Source: Nitrospira sp. (GTDB taxonomy: Bacteria > Nitrospirota > Nitrospiria > Nitrospirales > Nitrospiraceae). From it: a stretch of DNA of 34,846 bases. Positions within the stretch are counted from its first letter, which is position 1. Every line of letters begins with the position of its first letter. A program made the translations under genes and the position numbers. Positions 23,375 to 31,679 of the stretch are shown here, piece after piece. The stretch lies in NCBI GenBank assembly GCA_030692565.1, contig JAUYAO010000036.1, forward strand, positions 1 to 34,846, in the 5' to 3' direction. The notes beneath the pieces were generated by a model. That model was not told where the DNA came from, did no database searches, and saw only the letters and a list, made by a program, of their open reading frames with translations.

Positions 23375-24367
23375 ATGAATAACACCGCCACAAAATCGCT
23401 GGTCGATTGCCACGTGCATCTCGCCGCCCTTCCGGATGGAGACAACGGCTGCTACATCTCGCCGAAGATGCTCAAGAGCCCGTTGTTTCGATTCCTGTTT
23501 TGGAAACATGGCCTCTCAGTCGACCACCCGCGTGAAGCCAATGAAAAGTATCTGGACGATCTGCTCGTTGAACTGCGCGCCTCGAAGCATGTGCAGAAAG
23601 GCGTATTGCTCGGCATGGACGGCCATTATGACTCCACCGGCATCCTGAGCTTGGAACATACCGATCTGCTCGTGAGCAACGACTATGTGCTCAAGGCCGC
23701 TCAAGCCCATCCGAACGAGTTGCTGGCCGGCGTCTCCATCAACCCCCAGCGGCGGGACGCGGTCGACGAAGTGCACCGTTGCGCGGACGCCGGAGCAACC
23801 CTGGTCAAGGTATTGCCGAACGCGCAACAATTCGACCCGGCCGATCCAAAGTACAAGCCATTCTATCGGGCACTCGCCGAACGGAAGCTTCCGTTTCTCA
23901 GCCATGTCGGCTACGAGTTCAGCTTGATCGGCAAGGATCAATCGGTCGGCGAACCTGACCGACTCAGAGTCGCGCTTGACGAAGGGGCCACCGTCATCGC
24001 CGCTCACGCCTGTAGCTATGGCCTGATCCTCTTCGAGAAATTCCTCCCGACCCTGCGCGATCTGGTGCAGCGCTATCCGAATTTCTATGCCGATATCTCC
24101 GCCCTGACCCTGCCGAACCGCTTCCGGATGCTCTTGCACCTGCGCAACTACCCGGAAGTCCACGAGCGCCTGCTCTTCGGCACCGACTACCCGCTGTCCG
24201 TCTTTCACATCGCCGCCTGGGGACGCGTCGCCTTCGGCACGTTGCGCAAGATGATACAGACCAAGAACCGCTTCGACCGGCAGGTTGAAGTGTGCACCGG
24301 ACTGAAACTGGGCTTCCGCTCCCTCGGCGACATTCTTCCCCATTCAACGATTCAATTGATCCGGTAG
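23375..24367 (+). CDS. Amidohydrolase family (TIM-barrel metal-dependent hydrolase)
   Basis: A 330-residue protein of the amidohydrolase_2 group. The metal HxH is near the N-terminus (DCHVHL, His13 and His15), further barrel His residues are in FLSHVGYEF and IAAHACSYG, and the catalytic Asp is in LLFGTDYPLSVF. An active-site Lys candidate is in LVKVLPNAQQF. Substrates of this group include decarboxylated aromatic acids and lactones; none can be named here. It lies 34 bp after the acyltransferase and 12 bp before the sigma factor gene. Confidence 0.85.
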   Translation: MNNTATKSLVDCHVHLAALPDGDNGCYISPKMLKSPLFRFLFWKHGLSVDHPREANEKYLDDLLVELRASKHVQKGVLLGMDGHYDSTGILSLEHTDLLVSNDYVLKAAQAHPNELLAGVSINPQRRDAVDEVHRCADAGATLVKVLPNAQQFDPADPKYKPFYRALAERKLPFLSHVGYEFSLIGKDQSVGEPDRLRVALDEGATVIAAHACSYGLILFEKFLPTLRDLVQRYPNFYADISALTLPNRFRMLLHLRNYPEVHERLLFGTDYPLSVFHIAAWGRVAFGTLRKMIQTKNRFDRQVEVCTGLKLGFRSLGDILPHSTIQLIR

Positions 24368-24379
24368 TCAGGCGCACCG

Positions 24380-24877
24380 ATGGACCGCAATCAGATACTC
24401 GCCTCGCTTCGCGAAAGGATTCTCGCCTTCGCGACATCACGAGTATCGAGAGACCATGCCGAAGATCTGACCCAGGAGACGCTGGTCGTCCTTCATGAGA
24501 AGTACCCCGCGGTCACCGACTTGACCGAACTGGTCCCCTTGGCATTTCAGGTCTTGCGGTTCAAGATGCTCGACGCCCACCGCAAGGCCTTCCGGCGAGG
24601 CGAGTACAATCAGGAGTCGGTCGAGGAATTGCCGCTGGCTGATCCCGGTGATGATCCGGCCACTCAGCTCGACCAACAGCAGCGCGTGAACCGGTTACTC
24701 GCCGCGATCATGCAACTCGGCGAGCGCTGCCGGGAACTCTTCAAGTGGAAACTGGAGGGCAAAACCTTTCCCGAGATTCAGAAGATCATGGGCCAACAGT
24801 CAATCAATACGATCTATACCTGGGACCTTCGATGCCGAAAGCAGCTGTTGGCGGCAATGGACGGCAGCTGGGAATAA
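24380..24877 (+). CDS. ECF-type RNA polymerase sigma factor
   Basis: A 165-residue sigma-70 family protein with region 2 (FATSRVSRDHAEDLTQETLV, then LVPLAFQVLRFKMLDAHRK) and region 4 (LGERCRELFKWKLEGKTFPE, then QQSINTIYTWDLRCRKQLL). No region 1 or 3 is present, as in ECF sigmas. It is followed after 3 bp by a membrane protein that has the layout of an anti-sigma factor, so the pair is likely an ECF/anti-sigma unit. The target promoters are unknown. Confidence 0.88.
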   Translation: MDRNQILASLRERILAFATSRVSRDHAEDLTQETLVVLHEKYPAVTDLTELVPLAFQVLRFKMLDAHRKAFRRGEYNQESVEELPLADPGDDPATQLDQQQRVNRLLAAIMQLGERCRELFKWKLEGKTFPEIQKIMGQQSINTIYTWDLRCRKQLLAAMDGSWE

Positions 24878-24880
24878 ACA

Positions 24881-26308
24881 ATGGCTGAACACGAGCTTGA
24901 AAAACTCCTCGGCGGTTTCGCGGCGGATACGCTGACGCGGGAGGAACGCCGACAGCTCTTCACCGCCGCCATGCAAGATCAGCAACTCTTCAATGCCTTG
25001 GCCGACGAGCAGGCACTGAAAGAACTGTTGACCGACCCGGCTGTGCGACGCCGTTTGCTCCAATCCTTGGATAATACAACTCCGGCTCCTGCCGGCGGGT
25101 CGGCCTCATGGCTGGATTGGTTCCGACGACCCGCCAATCTCGCACTGGCGGGAGGACTGGCCACGGCCGTCTTCGCAGTCATCCTGGGCACCAAGATCTA
25201 TCAGGACAGTCTAAAGCAAGCCGTCCAAACGGTTGCGACTGAGGCAACACCATCTGCCGCGCCATCCGTTCCTCCGCCCGCACTGTCCCAGCCGTCAGCG
25301 GCCAAACCGGCTGAATCAAAGGCACAGGCCCAGGAGAATCAAGGCCTCTCAGCAATCGCCGCTAAGAAGGACTCACTGGCTGATACGAGTGTCACCCGCG
25401 AGCAATCAGCCACCGCACCACCGCAGGCAAGCGTTCCGGCTGATACCCTTCGCGACAATGCGCCGAAGAACACACAACAAGAAGAAGATCGGAAGCAAAC
25501 AGCGGCACCGGCCATCTCGATGGGGAAGACCCCAGACGAAGTCGCGGCAATAGTCCAGCGTCCACTCTCCGCCGGCTCACCGCCGACAGCGGCCATGCCG
25601 GAGGCCAAGACAGCACGGACGCCGGCCGGAGCATCCTTGTCAGAAACCAGTCCCGCGATCGCCGGCGCACGAGCCTTGTTTTATGGCGCCGGCGCCGATA
25701 CTGGGAGAATGGCCCAAGCCCAGGAACGCGCCATGAAGCCCCTGGCCGAAGCCGAGCCGCAGACGAGTCCGTTGAAGCGCAAACTCGAAGGGCTCTCCCA
25801 GCTCGGCAAAGCTGCTGCCCCTCCAATACCCGACAAGCCCCTCGGGCTCCGCTACAGTTTTGTGATCCGGACTCCCGACGGACAGGACCAGGAAGTCAAT
25901 GCAGCCGCGGCTTCGACGAGTTCAAGACCCGTGCACATGACCCTCGAACCCAATCAAGACGGCTACATTCAGGTATGGCGAAATGTGGGATCGGCCAACA
26001 CCCAACTGCTGCTGCCACAGAAAGACAGCGGTCATATTTCGGAAAAGATTCACGCCGGGCAACGGCAGCGCCTCCCATTGCCGGCTGACAGCGGCACCGT
26101 GATCGTCCGTCTGTCTCGCGTCCCGTTCGGACCTATCTCACGACAAGAGGCCGCGCTCCTCAACCGAGTTGCACCAAACCAACTCCAGGAATCGGTCACC
26201 GCCTCAAGTCCAACGGGTCCGCAGGAACAGGCCACTTACATCGTCAGCCAGGATCCCTCCCCCACCGCGCAGATCACGGTCGACATTCTGCTGACCCGCC
26301 AGCAATAA
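24881..26308 (+). CDS. Probable membrane anti-sigma factor with C-terminal DUF4384-like domain
   Basis: A 475-residue single-pass protein. The N-terminal ~85 residues are a helical cytoplasmic segment (LEKLLGGFAADTLTREERRQ) like anti-sigma domains, but without the zinc HxxxCxxC motif. One transmembrane helix follows (LALAGGLATAVFAVILGTKI, ~93-112). Then come ~200 residues rich in Ala, Pro, Gln and Ser, and a C-terminal beta-rich domain (LRYSFVIRTPDG, NQDGYIQVWRN, VIVRLSRVPFGP) resembling DUF4384. The periplasmic domain could sense a ligand and control release of the ECF sigma encoded 3 bp upstream. Neither the signal nor the release mechanism is visible. Confidence 0.75.
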   Translation: MAEHELEKLLGGFAADTLTREERRQLFTAAMQDQQLFNALADEQALKELLTDPAVRRRLLQSLDNTTPAPAGGSASWLDWFRRPANLALAGGLATAVFAVILGTKIYQDSLKQAVQTVATEATPSAAPSVPPPALSQPSAAKPAESKAQAQENQGLSAIAAKKDSLADTSVTREQSATAPPQASVPADTLRDNAPKNTQQEEDRKQTAAPAISMGKTPDEVAAIVQRPLSAGSPPTAAMPEAKTARTPAGASLSETSPAIAGARALFYGAGADTGRMAQAQERAMKPLAEAEPQTSPLKRKLEGLSQLGKAAAPPIPDKPLGLRYSFVIRTPDGQDQEVNAAAASTSSRPVHMTLEPNQDGYIQVWRNVGSANTQLLLPQKDSGHISEKIHAGQRQRLPLPADSGTVIVRLSRVPFGPISRQEAALLNRVAPNQLQESVTASSPTGPQEQATYIVSQDPSPTAQITVDILLTRQQ

Positions 26309-26375
26309 TGGCACTACCCAATTGTGTGTGGTTCAAGATCGATTGCGAGCTCTCACCACGTCATGCCCCTTGTTG

Positions 26376-26496
26376 GTAAGGAGGGGTGCGGGGAGGTCGA
26401 AGACCATGGTGGCTACCATGGTCAGGCGCGGCTCGCACGAATATACGGCGGTCCATGAACCCTCTACCCCTCCTAACCTCCCCTTACAAAGGGGAG
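26376..26496. repeat. Intergenic palindromic repeat with a perfect inner hairpin
   Basis: Arms TAAGGAGGGGTGCGGGGAGG and its approximate inverse around 26465-26496 (CCCCTCCTAACCTCCCCTTA) form a loose inverted repeat. In the middle GACCATGGT (26402-26410) and ACCATGGTC (26415-26423) form a perfect 9-bp hairpin with a 4-base loop. The block lies between the anti-sigma gene and nnrS and fills most of the 212-bp gap, which otherwise has no gene. Confidence 0.6.
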
Positions 26497-26520
26497 GAAT
26501 AGCGGACCGGCACAAATCAT

Positions 26521-27696
26521 ATGGCGACGGAACAACCTAGATCCCAAGAACCGGCATTCTTGTCCTACGGATTCCGCCCGTTCTTTCTGAGCGCGGCACT
26601 GTTCGCCGGCATAGCCATTCCTGTCTGGGCGCTGATTCTGTCTGGATGGACGGATTCACCCTTCCGCTATGCGCCGCGCGATTGGCATGTGCACGAGATG
26701 CTCTTCGGCTTTCTGCCCGCCGTGATCACCGGTTTCCTCCTGACCGCGATGCCGAACTGGACCGACCGGCCTCCGCTCAAAGGCACGCCGCTGCTGGCCT
26801 TAGTGACTCTCTGGCTGGCCGGACGTCTGACGATCGCCATGCCATGGCCGACGCCGCTGGTTTCGGCTCTCATTGATGCGGGATATCTGGCTGTGCTGGC
26901 CGCCATTGTCTGGCGGGAAATCATAGCGGGGAAAGCGTGGGATCGCGCACCGATCGGCATCGTCATCAGTCTCTATGCAGCCGCCGATATCCTGTTTCAT
27001 GTGCTGGCGCTGCGGGGATCAGAGACGGATCTTCCGGAGCGGATGGCCGTCGCGCTCATGATGCTGTTGCTGGCGCTCATCGGGGGGCGTGTGACGCCCA
27101 GCTTCACCAGCGATTACCTGGCCGAACGAGGCCTTCCCGACCAGCTTCCATCATTTTCCCGATTCGATGGACTGACGATTCTTCTCACAGTTGTCGCCGC
27201 ACTGTCCTGGGTGGTTCAGCCGCAAGCCAGAACAACGGGATGGTTTTTGATCATCGCAGGACTGGCCAACAGCGTCCGTCTCACTCGCTGGCGCGGGTGG
27301 CTCACATGGCGTGAGCCGATCGTGCTGATCCTGCATGTGGGGTATGGCTGGCTCGCGTTCTCGCTGCTCATCATCGGCGGATCGATACTCGGATTCGGCC
27401 TGAAACCGGCTGATGCGGTGCACGCGCTTACGACCGGCGCAGTCGGTTCGATGACCATGGCGGTGATGACCCGCGCCAGCCTAGGTCATACCGGACGACC
27501 GAAGCAGGCCGACCGCCTGACCATCATGATCTACATGCTGGTCAGCCTGGGTGCGCTGCTGCGAGTCTTCGGGCCAATGACGGGTCTGCCGCCGAATCTC
27601 GTACTCGGCGCAGCGGCGGCATTCTGGAGCGGCGCCTATCTTCTCTTTGCCGCCTTGTACGGCTCCTACCTCATTCGCCCCAGCCTCGACGAGTAA
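26521..27696 (+). CDS. nnrS: NnrS family haem-copper membrane protein
   Basis: A 391-residue protein with about 12 helices and the NnrS signature: FLSYGFRPFFLSAALFA, WHVHEMLFGFLPAVITGFLL, TAMPNWTDRPPLKG, GGRVTPSFTS and a C-terminal MTRASLGHTGRP. NnrS proteins bind haem and copper and are linked to protection from nitric oxide and nitrosative stress. That fits an organism handling nitrite or nitric oxide. The ATG at 26521 has no strong ribosome binding site. It is convergent with the phosphofructokinase fusion gene; the 78-bp gap has only a short TTTCACG direct repeat. Confidence 0.92.
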   Translation: MATEQPRSQEPAFLSYGFRPFFLSAALFAGIAIPVWALILSGWTDSPFRYAPRDWHVHEMLFGFLPAVITGFLLTAMPNWTDRPPLKGTPLLALVTLWLAGRLTIAMPWPTPLVSALIDAGYLAVLAAIVWREIIAGKAWDRAPIGIVISLYAAADILFHVLALRGSETDLPERMAVALMMLLLALIGGRVTPSFTSDYLAERGLPDQLPSFSRFDGLTILLTVVAALSWVVQPQARTTGWFLIIAGLANSVRLTRWRGWLTWREPIVLILHVGYGWLAFSLLIIGGSILGFGLKPADAVHALTTGAVGSMTMAVMTRASLGHTGRPKQADRLTIMIYMLVSLGALLRVFGPMTGLPPNLVLGAAAAFWSGAYLLFAALYGSYLIRPSLDE

Positions 27697-27774: not shown

Positions 27775-30102
27775 TTACGGCGGTCCGTTGCGCAACTCCG
27801 TGCCATGCATCCTGGCGAAGAGATCCCAGTCGAACTGTTTAGGCGCCACGGCATGGAGCGGGATCGCTTCGATCGCCCCGCGCTCGCGATAGGCCAGCAT
27901 GCATCCCACCACTTCCTCCGGACGTTCCACTAATCGATGGACCGTCTCATAGGCCAAATGCTGGGCGATGGCTTTGTCTTCCGGGGTCGGCGGAGCGCCC
28001 CGCAACGTATGGCCGAGAATGGTAGCCTTGGTCGCGAGCGTCAAGGGATACTGACCGGGCCTTGCGTGGCGCTGGGGCCATCCTCCGATCGCGCCGGCCA
28101 CGTAATCGACCAGGCCATGCACCCCTCCCTCCCGATGATGGCGATGGGGGGTTCGTTCGGCCACGACAAACAAGTGGCTCTTGTTGGGCACCCCCAGCGT
28201 GCGCTTCAGCGTGCCGAGAATCACCTCGTCGATATAGGCATCGGGATCGGGATGTTCGTTGACCAATAGGCCCTCAGCCCTCGCTTGATAGGCGCAGGCG
28301 AGCGCCAGATGCCCCGACCCTGCGCCCATCACTTCAACGAAAAACACGCTCCCCATGGCGGCGCTGGTCGCCTTGAGCGACTCAATCGACTGATCCGCCA
28401 GGGCCATGGCTGAATGGTAGCCGAGCGAGATGGCACCCTCGAGGTTGTTGTCGATCGTGCCGGGGATGCCCACCACCTGCACACCGAACCCTTCGTAGAT
28501 CGCCCGCGCCCCGCGGAAACTCCCGTCTCCCCCCAGAACCACCAACGCGGCGTCTTCCAGAAAAGGCGCGAGGTGCCCGACCGCCGCCCGCTGAACCAGT
28601 TCGTCCTTGAAGTCCTCGAAGCGGCTGCTGCCGATGGGACTGCTCGCATGACTGCTCATGCCGCGCGTATCCTCTTCAGTCACCGGTTCGATCCAATTAT
28701 TAGCGAGCCCGAGGAATCCGTGCCGGACGAAGTGAACATCCAGGCCGAATCGAGCCCCCTGCACGTGCAATTCTTTCAATGCGGCGCCGGCGCCGGCGAA
28801 ATCTCCCCCCGAGACCAACGCCACGATCCGCTTGATCTGTCGAGGTTTCAACGTCACCCGGTCTTTTCGCACCCGCTCGACCGCCACCCATGAATCCCGC
28901 GAGGCTCGTTCACGCTCCGATAGTCCGACCGCCGTAGAATAGCCCGACAAGCGCCCCTTTTCATACGCCAGCAGCACGACATTGTCCTGACTCTCTTTGT
29001 AGTCGCTGAATTCGGTGAAGGCTTCGTGAAACGGGCGCGGGTCCAGATAAATCATGAGGGCCCGCAACGTCGAACTGTGCGTATACAGGCACGCCACCTG
29101 GCCCTGATGCGCATCCCCCATGTGATGCAGTCCATCGATCACATCGACGTAGAGATCAAAAAACGAATTCCCGCCGGGATAACAATACAAAGGATCTTTG
29201 ATCAGACGTTTCGCGGTTGGGACATCGACGCCGAAAGCCTTGGCAAGTTCCTGAGTCTCCACCGTTTTTTCGACGCCGGTGATCCACCCAAAATCCGACG
29301 ACTCCAACGCAGGCGCATACGCCGCCCCGGCCGGAGGAAGCGGATCACGCACCAGCGCGGCCCCCACACGCTCAAAGAGTTGCCGCGTGTTCGGACTCCG
29401 GCTGATGAAGTGAAGAAACCTGGCGGGATCCAGGTAATTGGACAAGTGGAGAAAATCCAGCTGTTGACCGACCACGCCGACCATCCGGGCCAGTGCGGTC
29501 CCCACAGCGTCGGCCCGTGGCACGCCCCGTTCCTGATCCAACTGATTCGCCAAACGGCGACCGACCCGGTGCGTTTTACTCTCCACGCGGGAAATGCCAT
29601 GACGCATGGTAAAGAGCACGGTGCGACCGGACAATTCGCGCGGCAGGAGCCAGAATCGTTCATCGCCCAAGTCGAGCACGATACGTCCGTCCGCCAGCTG
29701 CGGCGTAAGCTGCGCACGCGGGACGATCGCCACGGGACGCCGCTGAGTCGGTTTCAATACGGATCCGATCGGCGCCCGCATCAAGGGTTGGAGCGCGCCC
29801 TCCGCGAGCACACGGTTCCAGGCGGCGAAAAACACCAGCGGGTCACCGGCACAGGGGCCATCGATCAGGGCTTGCCTGGCCGATCGATAGGCTTCGGCAT
29901 CGGGAAATCCAGCGTGAGCGCGGTCGACAAACGCCGTGATCTGCGCCATCGCCTGGCGCGCTTGCGCGGCACGGTCGTTCGATGGAGCCGGAGCGGCCGG
30001 CGCCGACACGCCCTCGATGGCCGGCCGTCGCGCGAACTGCTCTCCGTAGGCCAGCAGGCCTTCAATCGTCACGAAATCGAGCGAATTTGTGATACTCTGC
30101 AT
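27775..30102 (-). CDS. Histidine phosphatase fused to 6-phosphofructokinase
   Basis: A 775-residue two-enzyme protein. Residues ~1-155 are an N-terminal region without a clear family. Residues ~160-410 are a histidine phosphatase: nucleophile His168 in MRHGIS, second His342 in LYTHSSTLRAL, and a YPGGNSFFDL block that recalls YPxGES of fructose-2,6-bisphosphatases, with Asn312 in place of the acid Glu. Residues ~420-775 are a PFKA-type kinase: SGGDFAGAG (usually GGDAPG), LGGDGSFRGA, PGTIDNN with catalytic Asp551, VEVMGAGSG (usually VMGR) and TKATILGH (usually TR). GGDGS and GTIDN point to ATP rather than pyrophosphate. It is divergent from pyruvate kinase. An AGGAGG sits unusually close (about 3 bases) to the ATG. 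Confidence 0.85.
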   Translation of the reverse strand: MQSITNSLDFVTIEGLLAYGEQFARRPAIEGVSAPAAPAPSNDRAAQARQAMAQITAFVDRAHAGFPDAEAYRSARQALIDGPCAGDPLVFFAAWNRVLAEGALQPLMRAPIGSVLKPTQRRPVAIVPRAQLTPQLADGRIVLDLGDERFWLLPRELSGRTVLFTMRHGISRVESKTHRVGRRLANQLDQERGVPRADAVGTALARMVGVVGQQLDFLHLSNYLDPARFLHFISRSPNTRQLFERVGAALVRDPLPPAGAAYAPALESSDFGWITGVEKTVETQELAKAFGVDVPTAKRLIKDPLYCYPGGNSFFDLYVDVIDGLHHMGDAHQGQVACLYTHSSTLRALMIYLDPRPFHEAFTEFSDYKESQDNVVLLAYEKGRLSGYSTAVGLSERERASRDSWVAVERVRKDRVTLKPRQIKRIVALVSGGDFAGAGAALKELHVQGARFGLDVHFVRHGFLGLANNWIEPVTEEDTRGMSSHASSPIGSSRFEDFKDELVQRAAVGHLAPFLEDAALVVLGGDGSFRGARAIYEGFGVQVVGIPGTIDNNLEGAISLGYHSAMALADQSIESLKATSAAMGSVFFVEVMGAGSGHLALACAYQARAEGLLVNEHPDPDAYIDEVILGTLKRTLGVPNKSHLFVVAERTPHRHHREGGVHGLVDYVAGAIGGWPQRHARPGQYPLTLATKATILGHTLRGAPPTPEDKAIAQHLAYETVHRLVERPEEVVGCMLAYRERGAIEAIPLHAVAPKQFDWDLFARMHGTELRNGPP

Positions 30103-30135
30103 GCCCCTCCTTCACCTCCGGGTAGTTGGCCCGAC

Positions 30136-30145
30136 CACCGGTGGG
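30136..30145. promoter_or_regulatory. Perfect palindrome in the gap between the PFK fusion and pyk genes
   Basis: CCACCGGTGG lies in the 119-bp gap from which both glycolytic genes are transcribed outward. It is placed where a shared regulator could act; no known operator is recognised. Confidence 0.3.
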
Positions 30146-30221
30146 TGGCGCACAGCACCGGGCGTGAACGAGCGCATCATTGGGTGTCCGCCGATTCTTG
30201 TCAAGGGCTGAGGAGCGTCCT

Positions 30222-31679
30222 ATGCGAAAAGCAAAGATAGTCTGTACGATCGGACCCGCCAGCAGTTCGCTGGCGATGTTGGATCGGCTCATTGCATCTG
30301 GAATGGATGCCGCCAGGCTGAACTTCTCCCATGGGGCACATGACACCCATGCAGCCGCCATCGCGACGATCCGCCAAGCGGCGGAGCGCCGCCAGGCCGC
30401 CGTCGCGATTATCCAGGATCTCCAAGGACCCAGGATTCGCGTGGGCGACTTACCCGAAGAGGGGATCGAGGTGACCACGGGCCAGTCGGTGCGGCTGCAG
30501 ACGATGCTGGCGCGGTCCGGCGGTCAGCTCGGCGCCCAATCCGTCGCCAAGGCGCACTCCGCCATCCCCGAAATCCCGGTCACCTACCCCTATCTTGCCC
30601 GCGACCTTAGGCCCGGCGCGCGAGTCTTGATCAACGACGGGCTGATTGAACTCATGGTCGATCGCATCGCGGGCGGAGCCGTCGAATGCACCGTCGCCAC
30701 CGGCGGGACGATCACCTCGCACAAAGGCATCAATTTACCGGGCACCCTCGTCAGCGCGCCCACCCTCACCGACAAAGACCGGGAAGACATCCGGTTCGGC
30801 ATCGCCCACGGCGTGGACTACCTGGCGCTCTCCTTCGTCAGGGGACCGGAAGACATCCTGGCAGCGCGGGCCTTGGTCGCTCAATGCGGCGGAACGGTGC
30901 CGATCATTGCCAAGATCGAACGGGCCGAAGCCGTGACCGCCCTGGACGCGATCCTGGACGAGGCGGACGGGGTCATGATTGCGCGGGGGGATCTGGGCGT
31001 GGAGATGAGTCCTGAAGCCGTGCCGCTGTTGCAGAAACGTATCATCATGGAAGCCAACCGCCGCCGCCGCCTCGTGATCACCGCCACGCAAATGCTGGAG
31101 TCGATGACCCAAGCCCTGCGTCCGACCAGAGCGGAAGCCTCGGATGTCGCCAATGCCGTGTTCGACGGCACCGACGCGGTCATGCTGTCGGCTGAAACGG
31201 CCATCGGCGCGCATCCGGTTGAAACCGTCCAGGTCATGGATCGCATCATTCGCGCGGCGGAAGAAGGTCCCGAGCCAGGCGTGAGACCCAAGCGTCACAC
31301 CGACTGGGGAGACATGGCCTTCCCCGAAGCGATCTGTACCGCAGCGGCCTCGGCCGCCAAGGCGATCGCCGCCGGCGTCATCGTCGCCTTCAGCGAGCGG
31401 GGCACGACGGCGCACCTCATCTCGAAACAGCGACCGGCCGCACCGATCATCGCCTTCACTCCGTTTGAGCCGGTCAGAAAACGGATGGCCCTCTATTGGG
31501 GCGTGCGCCCTTACACCATGCCGCAGATCGAACAGACCGATGCCCGTGTGGACGAAGCCGAACGACGGCTGAAAGCGGAGGGACTGGCCAAGACCGGAGA
31601 ACGGATTGTCATCCTCTCCGGGACTCGCATCGGGCAACCCGGGGGCACGAATCTGATCAAGCTGCACGTCGTGGGATAA
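30222..31679 (+). CDS. pyk: Pyruvate kinase
   Basis: Converts phosphoenolpyruvate and ADP to pyruvate and ATP, the last step of glycolysis. All blocks are present over 485 residues: KAKIVCTIGPASSS, AARLNFSHG, the active-site IIAKIERAEAV, GVMIARGDLGVEM, ATQMLESM and DGTDAVMLSAETAIGAHPVE, plus a C-terminal regulatory domain. The ATG at 30222 has GAGGAG 7 bases upstream; an in-frame start at 30180 is unlikely. It is divergent from the phosphatase-PFK gene, which suggests joint control of glycolytic flux. Confidence 0.95.
   Translation: MRKAKIVCTIGPASSSLAMLDRLIASGMDAARLNFSHGAHDTHAAAIATIRQAAERRQAAVAIIQDLQGPRIRVGDLPEEGIEVTTGQSVRLQTMLARSGGQLGAQSVAKAHSAIPEIPVTYPYLARDLRPGARVLINDGLIELMVDRIAGGAVECTVATGGTITSHKGINLPGTLVSAPTLTDKDREDIRFGIAHGVDYLALSFVRGPEDILAARALVAQCGGTVPIIAKIERAEAVTALDAILDEADGVMIARGDLGVEMSPEAVPLLQKRIIMEANRRRRLVITATQMLESMTQALRPTRAEASDVANAVFDGTDAVMLSAETAIGAHPVETVQVMDRIIRAAEEGPEPGVRPKRHTDWGDMAFPEAICTAAASAAKAIAAGVIVAFSERGTTAHLISKQRPAAPIIAFTPFEPVRKRMALYWGVRPYTMPQIEQTDARVDEAERRLKAEGLAKTGERIVILSGTRIGQPGGTNLIKLHVVG

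Follow-up and report, generated by a model that had tools for sequence, protein, structure and literature searches.

A predicted histidine-phosphatase-like domain fused to an altered PFK-1-type kinase in the Nitrospira group

Layout of the fusion and its closest described relatives

In the eukaryotic 6-phosphofructo-2-kinase/fructose-2,6-bisphosphatases (PFK-2/FBPase-2; PFKFB), a sugar-phosphate kinase, itself a P-loop protein, and a histidine-phosphatase fold are joined in one chain. GPM2 of M. tuberculosis and YK23 (SHB17) of yeast are stand-alone, active histidine phosphatases with a full catalytic set. Both act as fructose bisphosphatase (FBPase) or sedoheptulose bisphosphatase (SBPase), and sugar-bisphosphate substrates therefore have precedent in this superfamily (PMC4535450). 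A gene that combines a histidine-phosphatase-like domain with a phosphofructokinase (PFK) in another arrangement lies on the minus strand of the window, the 34,846-nucleotide stretch of Nitrospira sp. DNA analysed here (GenBank assembly GCA_030692565.1, contig JAUYAO010000036.1), which is contig C36 of genome G000 (completeness listed as 100). An earlier note, made from the letters alone, had described a histidine phosphatase and a PFK in one polypeptide, phosphatase first, and predicted folds at residues 160-391 and 422-769 bear this out. The parts of the gene, all on the minus strand, are as follows.

27775 to 30102, minus strand: whole open reading frame (ORF) of 775 amino acids, comprising N-terminal region, histidine-phosphatase-like domain and PFK-1-type kinase; aligned in the window and 62 full-length loci
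29638 to 30102, minus strand: N-terminal region, residues 1-155; no family match
28867 to 29637, minus strand: histidine-phosphatase-like domain, residues 156-412; predicted fold and profile matches
27823 to 28842, minus strand: PFK-1-type kinase domain, residues 421-760; PF00365 E 1.5e-50, 1pfk Z 33.0
29596 to 29604, minus strand: R167-H168-G169, RHG motif with the nucleophile His; 63/63
29389 to 29391, minus strand: N238, placed by hhalign at three settings opposite the second catalytic Arg found in histidine phosphatases; Asn in 63/63
29299 to 29301, minus strand: S268, which both hhalign and MAFFT place opposite the histidine-phosphatase acid Glu (LxExxxG); Ser in 62/63
29077 to 29079, minus strand: H342, second catalytic His, in THSSTLR; 63/63
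28444 to 28452, minus strand: D551-N552-N553, with the catalytic base (E. coli D127) kept and E. coli D129 replaced by Asn; D551 and N553 63/63
28321 to 28350, minus strand: S585 to A594, with E. coli R162 and R171 replaced; S585 57/63, A594 63/63
28027 to 28029, minus strand: K692, with E. coli R243 replaced by Lys; 63/63

Predicted fold and domain score place the fusion in the PFK superfamily, although it falls below the PFKA equivalog cut-off and lacks four defining residues (D129, R162, R171 and R243). With bacterial ATP-PFK, represented by E. coli PfkA, it shares the fold, the GGDG ATP signature, the catalytic base and the equivalents of R72, E222, H249 and R252, but D129, H160, R162, R171 and R243 are replaced and about 420 residues are added at the N-terminus. 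Fold and the RHG motif with its second His likewise assign the other half, as modelled, to the histidine phosphatase superfamily, from which it departs at two catalytic positions: the branch-1 enzymes (PhoE, PspA-type phosphoserine phosphatase and phosphoglycerate mutase) share its fold (Z 15-17), RHG and second His, whereas the fusion has Asn and Ser at the second-Arg and acid-Glu positions. Like PFKFB, it unites a sugar-phosphate kinase with a histidine-phosphatase fold, but its kinase has the PFK-1 fold and is placed after the phosphatase, in reverse order; the fusion is not a PFKFB. The parallel with PFK-2/FBPase-2 drawn in the earlier note therefore holds for the presence of two enzyme folds in one chain and is otherwise a likeness of idea only, given the PFK-1 fold of the kinase.

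The ORF begins with ATG and has a GGAGG-type ribosome site immediately 5' (by eye). Residue counts throughout refer to 63 aligned rows, the window plus 62 full-length loci, with near-identical loci carrying full weight each; a full-length locus is a single ORF matching the query from residue 10 or earlier to residue 760 or later, and 12 of 74 loci that were cut, frameshifted or differed at the N-terminus were excluded. The three-part layout is common to all 63 rows, ruling out chance or misassembly as its origin. At one locus, in Ca. Manganitrophus GAC4 (L068, 5941-8321), the fusion gene consists of two overlapping frames with the break near residue 433, where the PFK part begins, reflecting either an assembly frameshift or a real split. 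The full-length AlphaFold model has a mean predicted local distance difference test score (pLDDT) of 78.3 and a predicted template modelling score (pTM) of 0.58, with the five models spanning 65.5 to 78.3, while a separate model of residues 1-418 reached pLDDT 83.3 and pTM 0.86. Residues 1-155, left unassigned in the earlier note, still have no Pfam family: scans of the family proteins gave only scattered weak matches beyond His_Phos_1. In the model of residues 1-418 this region forms helices at 13-24, 44-62, 69-81, 88-100 and 105-109, followed by short strands, with ten-residue mean pLDDT of 90-98 across residues 11-110; 13.5% of its alignment columns are invariant. The listed structural matches scarcely ever extend into it, which is no proof of a new fold.

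Active-site residues of the two halves

The kinase half matches PF00365 at residues 425-722 (E 1.5e-50, 172.6 bits against a gathering cut-off of 30.9), and its predicted PFK-1 fold at 422-769 superimposes on E. coli 1pfk with Z 33.0 over 313 aligned residues (root-mean-square deviation (rmsd) 3.0; AlphaFold model). It does not reach the cut-off of the NCBIfam equivalog TIGR02482 (PFKA_ATP), scoring 166.7 versus 371.35 bits. Mapped onto E. coli PfkA as reference, the ATP-type signature is complete in 63/63 rows, comprising GGDG (D526, G527), G531, R494 and the base D551; a GGDG versus GGDD rule separating ATP from pyrophosphate (PPi) donors is given in section 9 of PMC12203962. A PPi-dependent PFK, for which GGDD and PKTIDxD are needed, is ruled out by GGDG and P547-G548, each in 63/63 rows. 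The equivalents of R252, H249 and E222 are also retained throughout, while D129, R162, R171 and R243 are replaced as listed above and H160 has become M583 (63/63). Five further PFKs of the phylum, drawn from four genomes in a set that excluded two PPi-type enzymes (G027, G097), retain all five of these residues (5/5). Those PPi-type enzymes keep D129, R162 and R171 (by eye, from the alignment), and the C-terminal half of rabbit muscle PFK aligns Asn with D129 and Gly with R171. The roles of D129, R171 and R243 are presumably those known from E. coli PFK mutagenesis. Several effector-site positions, with roles that we take to be those of E. coli PfkA, deviate as well, though other PFKs also vary there. 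Arg162 is described in PMC12203962 as a fructose 6-phosphate ligand that the adjacent subunit contributes when the enzyme is in its active state.

For the phosphatase-like half, His_Phos_1 matches the window protein weakly (E 0.023; 14.8 bits, with the cut-off at 21.7), and the PF00300 score varies between 14.8 and 18.6 bits with the stretch submitted, below the same gathering cut-off; a match at E <=0.1 occurs in 53/54 family members scanned (best E 6.4e-7). Structure prediction, one of the checks suggested in the earlier note, gives this half a histidine-phosphatase fold. The model of residues 1-418 aligns at 160-391 with the phosphoserine phosphatase 4ij6 (Z 16.9, 193 residues, rmsd 2.7) and with PhoE 1h2e (Z 16.4), the full model aligns at 160-393 with PhoE/YhfR 1ebb (Z 16.8, 195 residues), and the branch-1 fold recurs at Z 15.2-16.9 across the 50 rows listed. 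Bisphosphoglycerate mutase, PFKFB3 and TIGAR are among the Foldseek matches listed for the N-terminal model, at E about 1e-7 to 1e-6. A tblastn search of plasmids with residues 156-418 gave no match. Beside another histidine phosphatase, a stand-alone match in G119 (C2:33868-35069), an FBPase match follows after 60 bases on the same strand.

For the catalytic comparison, a motif filter retained 8 and 7 stand-alone phosphatases out of 17 loci (L104-L120), and 7 of the 10 comparison regions retrieved were used. H342 aligns with the second His of the stand-alone phosphatases, as it does with that of PhoE by a weak profile match (E 0.4), and R347 is invariant (63/63). No conserved Arg occurs across residues 230-244 in the 63 rows under either hhalign or MAFFT placement. 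The acid position, which the earlier note had assigned to Asn312, aligns instead with S268; Asn312 falls on the Glu in the PGGES block and is not the general acid, and its column holds His in 48 rows and Asn in 15. Position 267, beside S268, is Glu in 52 rows and Asp in 10. The other observations of the note fared better: His168, His342 and Asp551 are present in every row, and the RHGI, GGDFAG, VMGA and TK alterations stand in the sequence as written. Its claim that key residues are altered in both halves holds family-wide, although its list missed N553, M583, S585, N238 and S268.

Both altered halves are under purifying selection. The ratio of nonsynonymous to synonymous substitution rates (dN/dS) between the window and the next eight alignment rows (81-95% identical) is 0.03-0.09 in the PFK half and 0.05-0.14 in the phosphatase half, while the N-terminal region gives 0.15-0.28. 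In two of the pairs both enzyme halves have dS >1.8, near saturation. These low ratios indicate that selection keeps both halves as they are, and rule out decay of either.

Distribution, companion enzymes and gene neighbourhood

A scan of genome contigs found 74 loci, with record titles from the Nitrospira group save two, labelled Nitrospinota (L044) and Nitrosospira (L034); the scan used six exact query peptides, so distant fusions elsewhere could escape it. The genome of L044 belongs to the phylum of the window, as a phylum search centred there returned identical match coordinates. A survey of Nitrospirota, also suggested in the earlier note, found the fusion in 27/148 genomes (best E 0, both halves), every one of them in the window's class, for which 40 genomes were listed. 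The other listed genomes of the phylum gave best matches of E 7e-28 or weaker, covering the PFK part or little more, and 14 genomes had no match. The fusion has so far been seen only in the Nitrospira group. No description of a histidine-phosphatase/PFK-1 fusion was found in the literature searched, from which subscription papers were largely absent. In the text available of a PFK superfamily review from 2025 (PMC12203962), no word begins with 'phosphatase' and no phosphatase fusion is mentioned, while more domain fusions are expected from new structures.

Companion enzymes were counted in the 40 class genomes, 27 with the fusion and 13 without, taking a PF00365 match or a TIGR03168 score over cut-off as another PFK. 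Such an enzyme occurs in 23/27 genomes with the fusion and 11/13 without (Fisher p = 1.0). A separate PF00365 enzyme is present in 28/40; those of G027 and G097 carry GGDD and PKTIDND and so are of PPi type. The sole PF00365 match of one 2.0-Mb genome (G105:C19:26428-27132) covers a partial profile and has a TGA inside. TIGR03168 (PfkB-like) exceeds its cut-off in 6/40 genomes, a model that includes 1-phosphofructokinases and hence no proof of PFK activity. Its overlap with the separate PF00365 enzyme is 0 (hypergeometric 2.4e-4, kinship uncorrected), and the two look interchangeable. The idea that the fusion is the only PFK of G000, in which PF00365 matches once, was dropped in view of a PfkB-like enzyme at G000:C56:42580-43494 (332.1 bits versus a cut-off of 216.4). 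FBPase (PF00316) is found in 40/40 genomes, ruling out the fusion as the sole FBPase of the cell; GlpX is found in 0/40. Glycogen phosphorylase (PF00343) matched in 35/40, mostly in part and with no clear split by fusion presence, and was left unused.

The fusion gene is divergent from a gene for pyruvate kinase.

30103 to 30221, no strand: 119-bp intergenic region separating the fusion gene from pyruvate kinase; its minus strand carries one sigma-70-like site (30204-30176; consensus match only)
30222 to 31679, plus strand: pyruvate kinase; PF00224 E 4.4e-111

Pyruvate kinase lies near the fusion at 59/74 loci and within 1 kb at 58/74, in which 39 genes lie divergently upstream, 17 follow downstream in the same orientation and 2 are downstream and convergent; the one further gene is upstream on the same strand, 2.4 kb off. 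Nine loci (L037, L042, L043, L044, L047, L048, L049, L061 and L073) have a second type of pyruvate kinase nearby, about 37% identical to that of the window, eight of them within 1 kb and the ninth 2.4 kb away. Identity between the two pyruvate kinase groups averages 36.0%, versus 70.1% for their full-length fusions. The 27 fusion genomes all contain pyruvate kinase, which by coordinates is adjacent in 18. Since adjacency survives both rearrangement and replacement of the pyruvate kinase, it suggests that the two proteins are functionally coupled, though kinship of the genomes is uncorrected. On the other side of the fusion gene, positions 23375-27696 of the window (plus strand) encode an amidohydrolase, a sigma-70-region-2 protein, a long protein with no family match and NnrS; the first three each occur near the fusion at 8/74 loci and NnrS at 5/74.

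Explanations weighed and meaning for Nitrospira

The best explanation, offered tentatively, is a remodelled PFK-1-type kinase with a phosphate-binding N-terminal domain derived from a histidine phosphatase, serving a specialised or regulatory purpose and not acting as a general PFK or FBPase. It is the simplest account because the ATP site and base are intact while the acceptor ligands have changed, the phosphatase set is partial, pyruvate kinase is linked, and other PFKs and FBPase are present. The kinase half would bind Mg-ATP and a sugar phosphate, with Asp551 mediating phosphate transfer; given that 6-phosphate and transition-state ligands have changed, it may be slower than a housekeeping PFK, operate without classical cooperativity or act on a different sugar phosphate. 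The phosphatase-derived half could hold a phosphorylated metabolite between R167, H168 and H342 and adjust the kinase, and may slowly hydrolyse what it binds, so that the fusion would help to tune glycolytic flux in step with pyruvate kinase. What the analysis shows are the predicted folds, the conservation, the changed residues, the link to pyruvate kinase and the co-occurrence of other PFKs and FBPase; that the protein binds ATP, catalyses slowly or differently, acts as a sensor and has a regulatory role is inferred. The suggestion in the earlier note that one half is a sensor is well motivated, as the residue changes are real and family-wide.

Several observations weigh against a specialised or regulatory kinase. 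Four of the 27 fusion genomes (G110, G117, G125 and G137) have no other PFK by two models, and the fusion may be the PFK there; isozymes are also common, E. coli having two PFKs, and a second PFK is no proof that the fusion lacks PFK activity. The PPi-type PFKs of G027 and G097 likewise have no His at H160 or Arg at R243 (by eye), so these two changes alone are no mark of special function. The second-Arg call comes from low-identity alignment: MAFFT, given stand-alone and fusion phosphatase domains together, sets the beta-2 region differently from hhalign and places R235 at that position (Arg in 23/63), and R245 (Arg in 61/63), just past residues 230-244, could compensate. The link to pyruvate kinase has its gaps as well: of the 15 loci without pyruvate kinase nearby, 7 are flanked by 1.5 kb or more on each side; no common neighbour appears among 10 neighbouring ORFs annotated at 7 loci without pyruvate kinase; the gene is non-adjacent in 9/27 fusion genomes; and it is also present in 10/13 genomes without the fusion, 37/40 overall.

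A bifunctional enzyme, in which the kinase makes and the phosphatase removes a sugar bisphosphate, would set the bisphosphate level or act as a switch between glycolysis and gluconeogenesis. His168, His342, Arg167, Asp551 and the ATP site are kept in 63/63 rows, FBPase- or SBPase-active histidine phosphatases exist (GPM2 and YK23; PMC4535450), and PFKFB3 and TIGAR are among the Foldseek matches. The invariance of His168 and Asp551 and the known FBPase-active phosphatases keep this explanation in consideration, but it is somewhat unlikely. The make-and-remove proposal of the earlier note is weakened by the loss of the acid Glu (Ser in 62/63), the lack of a conserved second Arg (Asn in 63/63) and the FBPase already present in 40/40 genomes; moreover, PFKFB and TIGAR are not singled out by Foldseek, in which phosphoglycerate mutases and PhoE score alike, and neither is among the 50 rows listed in the second structural comparison. 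That the protein is an ordinary glycolytic ATP-PFK, with drifted residues that tune kinetics only and an accessory domain, is consistent with the intact ATP signature and base, the R252, H249 and E222 equivalents, the linkage to pyruvate kinase and the four fusion genomes in which it is the sole PFK candidate. This is unlikely, however, as five active-site positions kept in 5/5 other PFKs are changed family-wide, the PFKA_ATP score is far under its cut-off, and the fusion does not replace other PFKs (23/27 versus 11/13), unlike the mutual exclusion of PfkB-like and PF00365 enzymes.

The fusion might also be a fully non-catalytic pair of pseudoenzymes that responds to a ligand and serves as partner to another protein, pyruvate kinase being one candidate. 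Catalytic residues are altered in both halves, pyruvate kinase is linked and other PFKs and FBPase are present, all of which would fit; in rabbit muscle PFK, too, the C-terminal half has replacements, Asn at D129 and Gly at R171. Pseudoenzymes, however, usually lose such catalytic residues as the metal-binding Asp526, the base Asp551 and the nucleophile His168, all present in 63/63 rows, which makes this account distinctly unlikely. Gluconeogenesis in Nitrospira is fed by the reverse tricarboxylic acid (TCA) cycle, and a more speculative, quite improbable idea is that the fusion represents a bacterial counterpart of the PFK-2/FBPase-2 switch of independent origin, making and removing a low-abundance sugar bisphosphate, distinct from the bulk intermediates of glycolysis, as an effector of the neighbouring pyruvate kinase and so coordinating glycolysis with that gluconeogenesis. 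Such an effector circuit has biochemical precedent, since micromolar fructose 2,6-bisphosphate activates the pyruvate kinases of trypanosomatids (PMC4448766).

The reading of this gene bears on how nitrifiers are described, as gene lists decide whether they are credited with glycolysis. In Great Lakes Nitrospira, for instance, glycolysis was inferred to be incomplete from an absent phosphofructokinase, according to PMC9239080. If the PFK domain leads to the fusion being counted as a phosphofructokinase, such reconstructions depend on an active site altered at five positions, and in 4/40 class genomes it is the only PFK candidate by the two models. If a specialised or regulatory kinase does control flux together with pyruvate kinase, nitrite oxidisers would have in it a new fused regulator of their central metabolism; the protein may represent an unstudied control protein of sugar breakdown in the nitrite-oxidising Nitrospira group.

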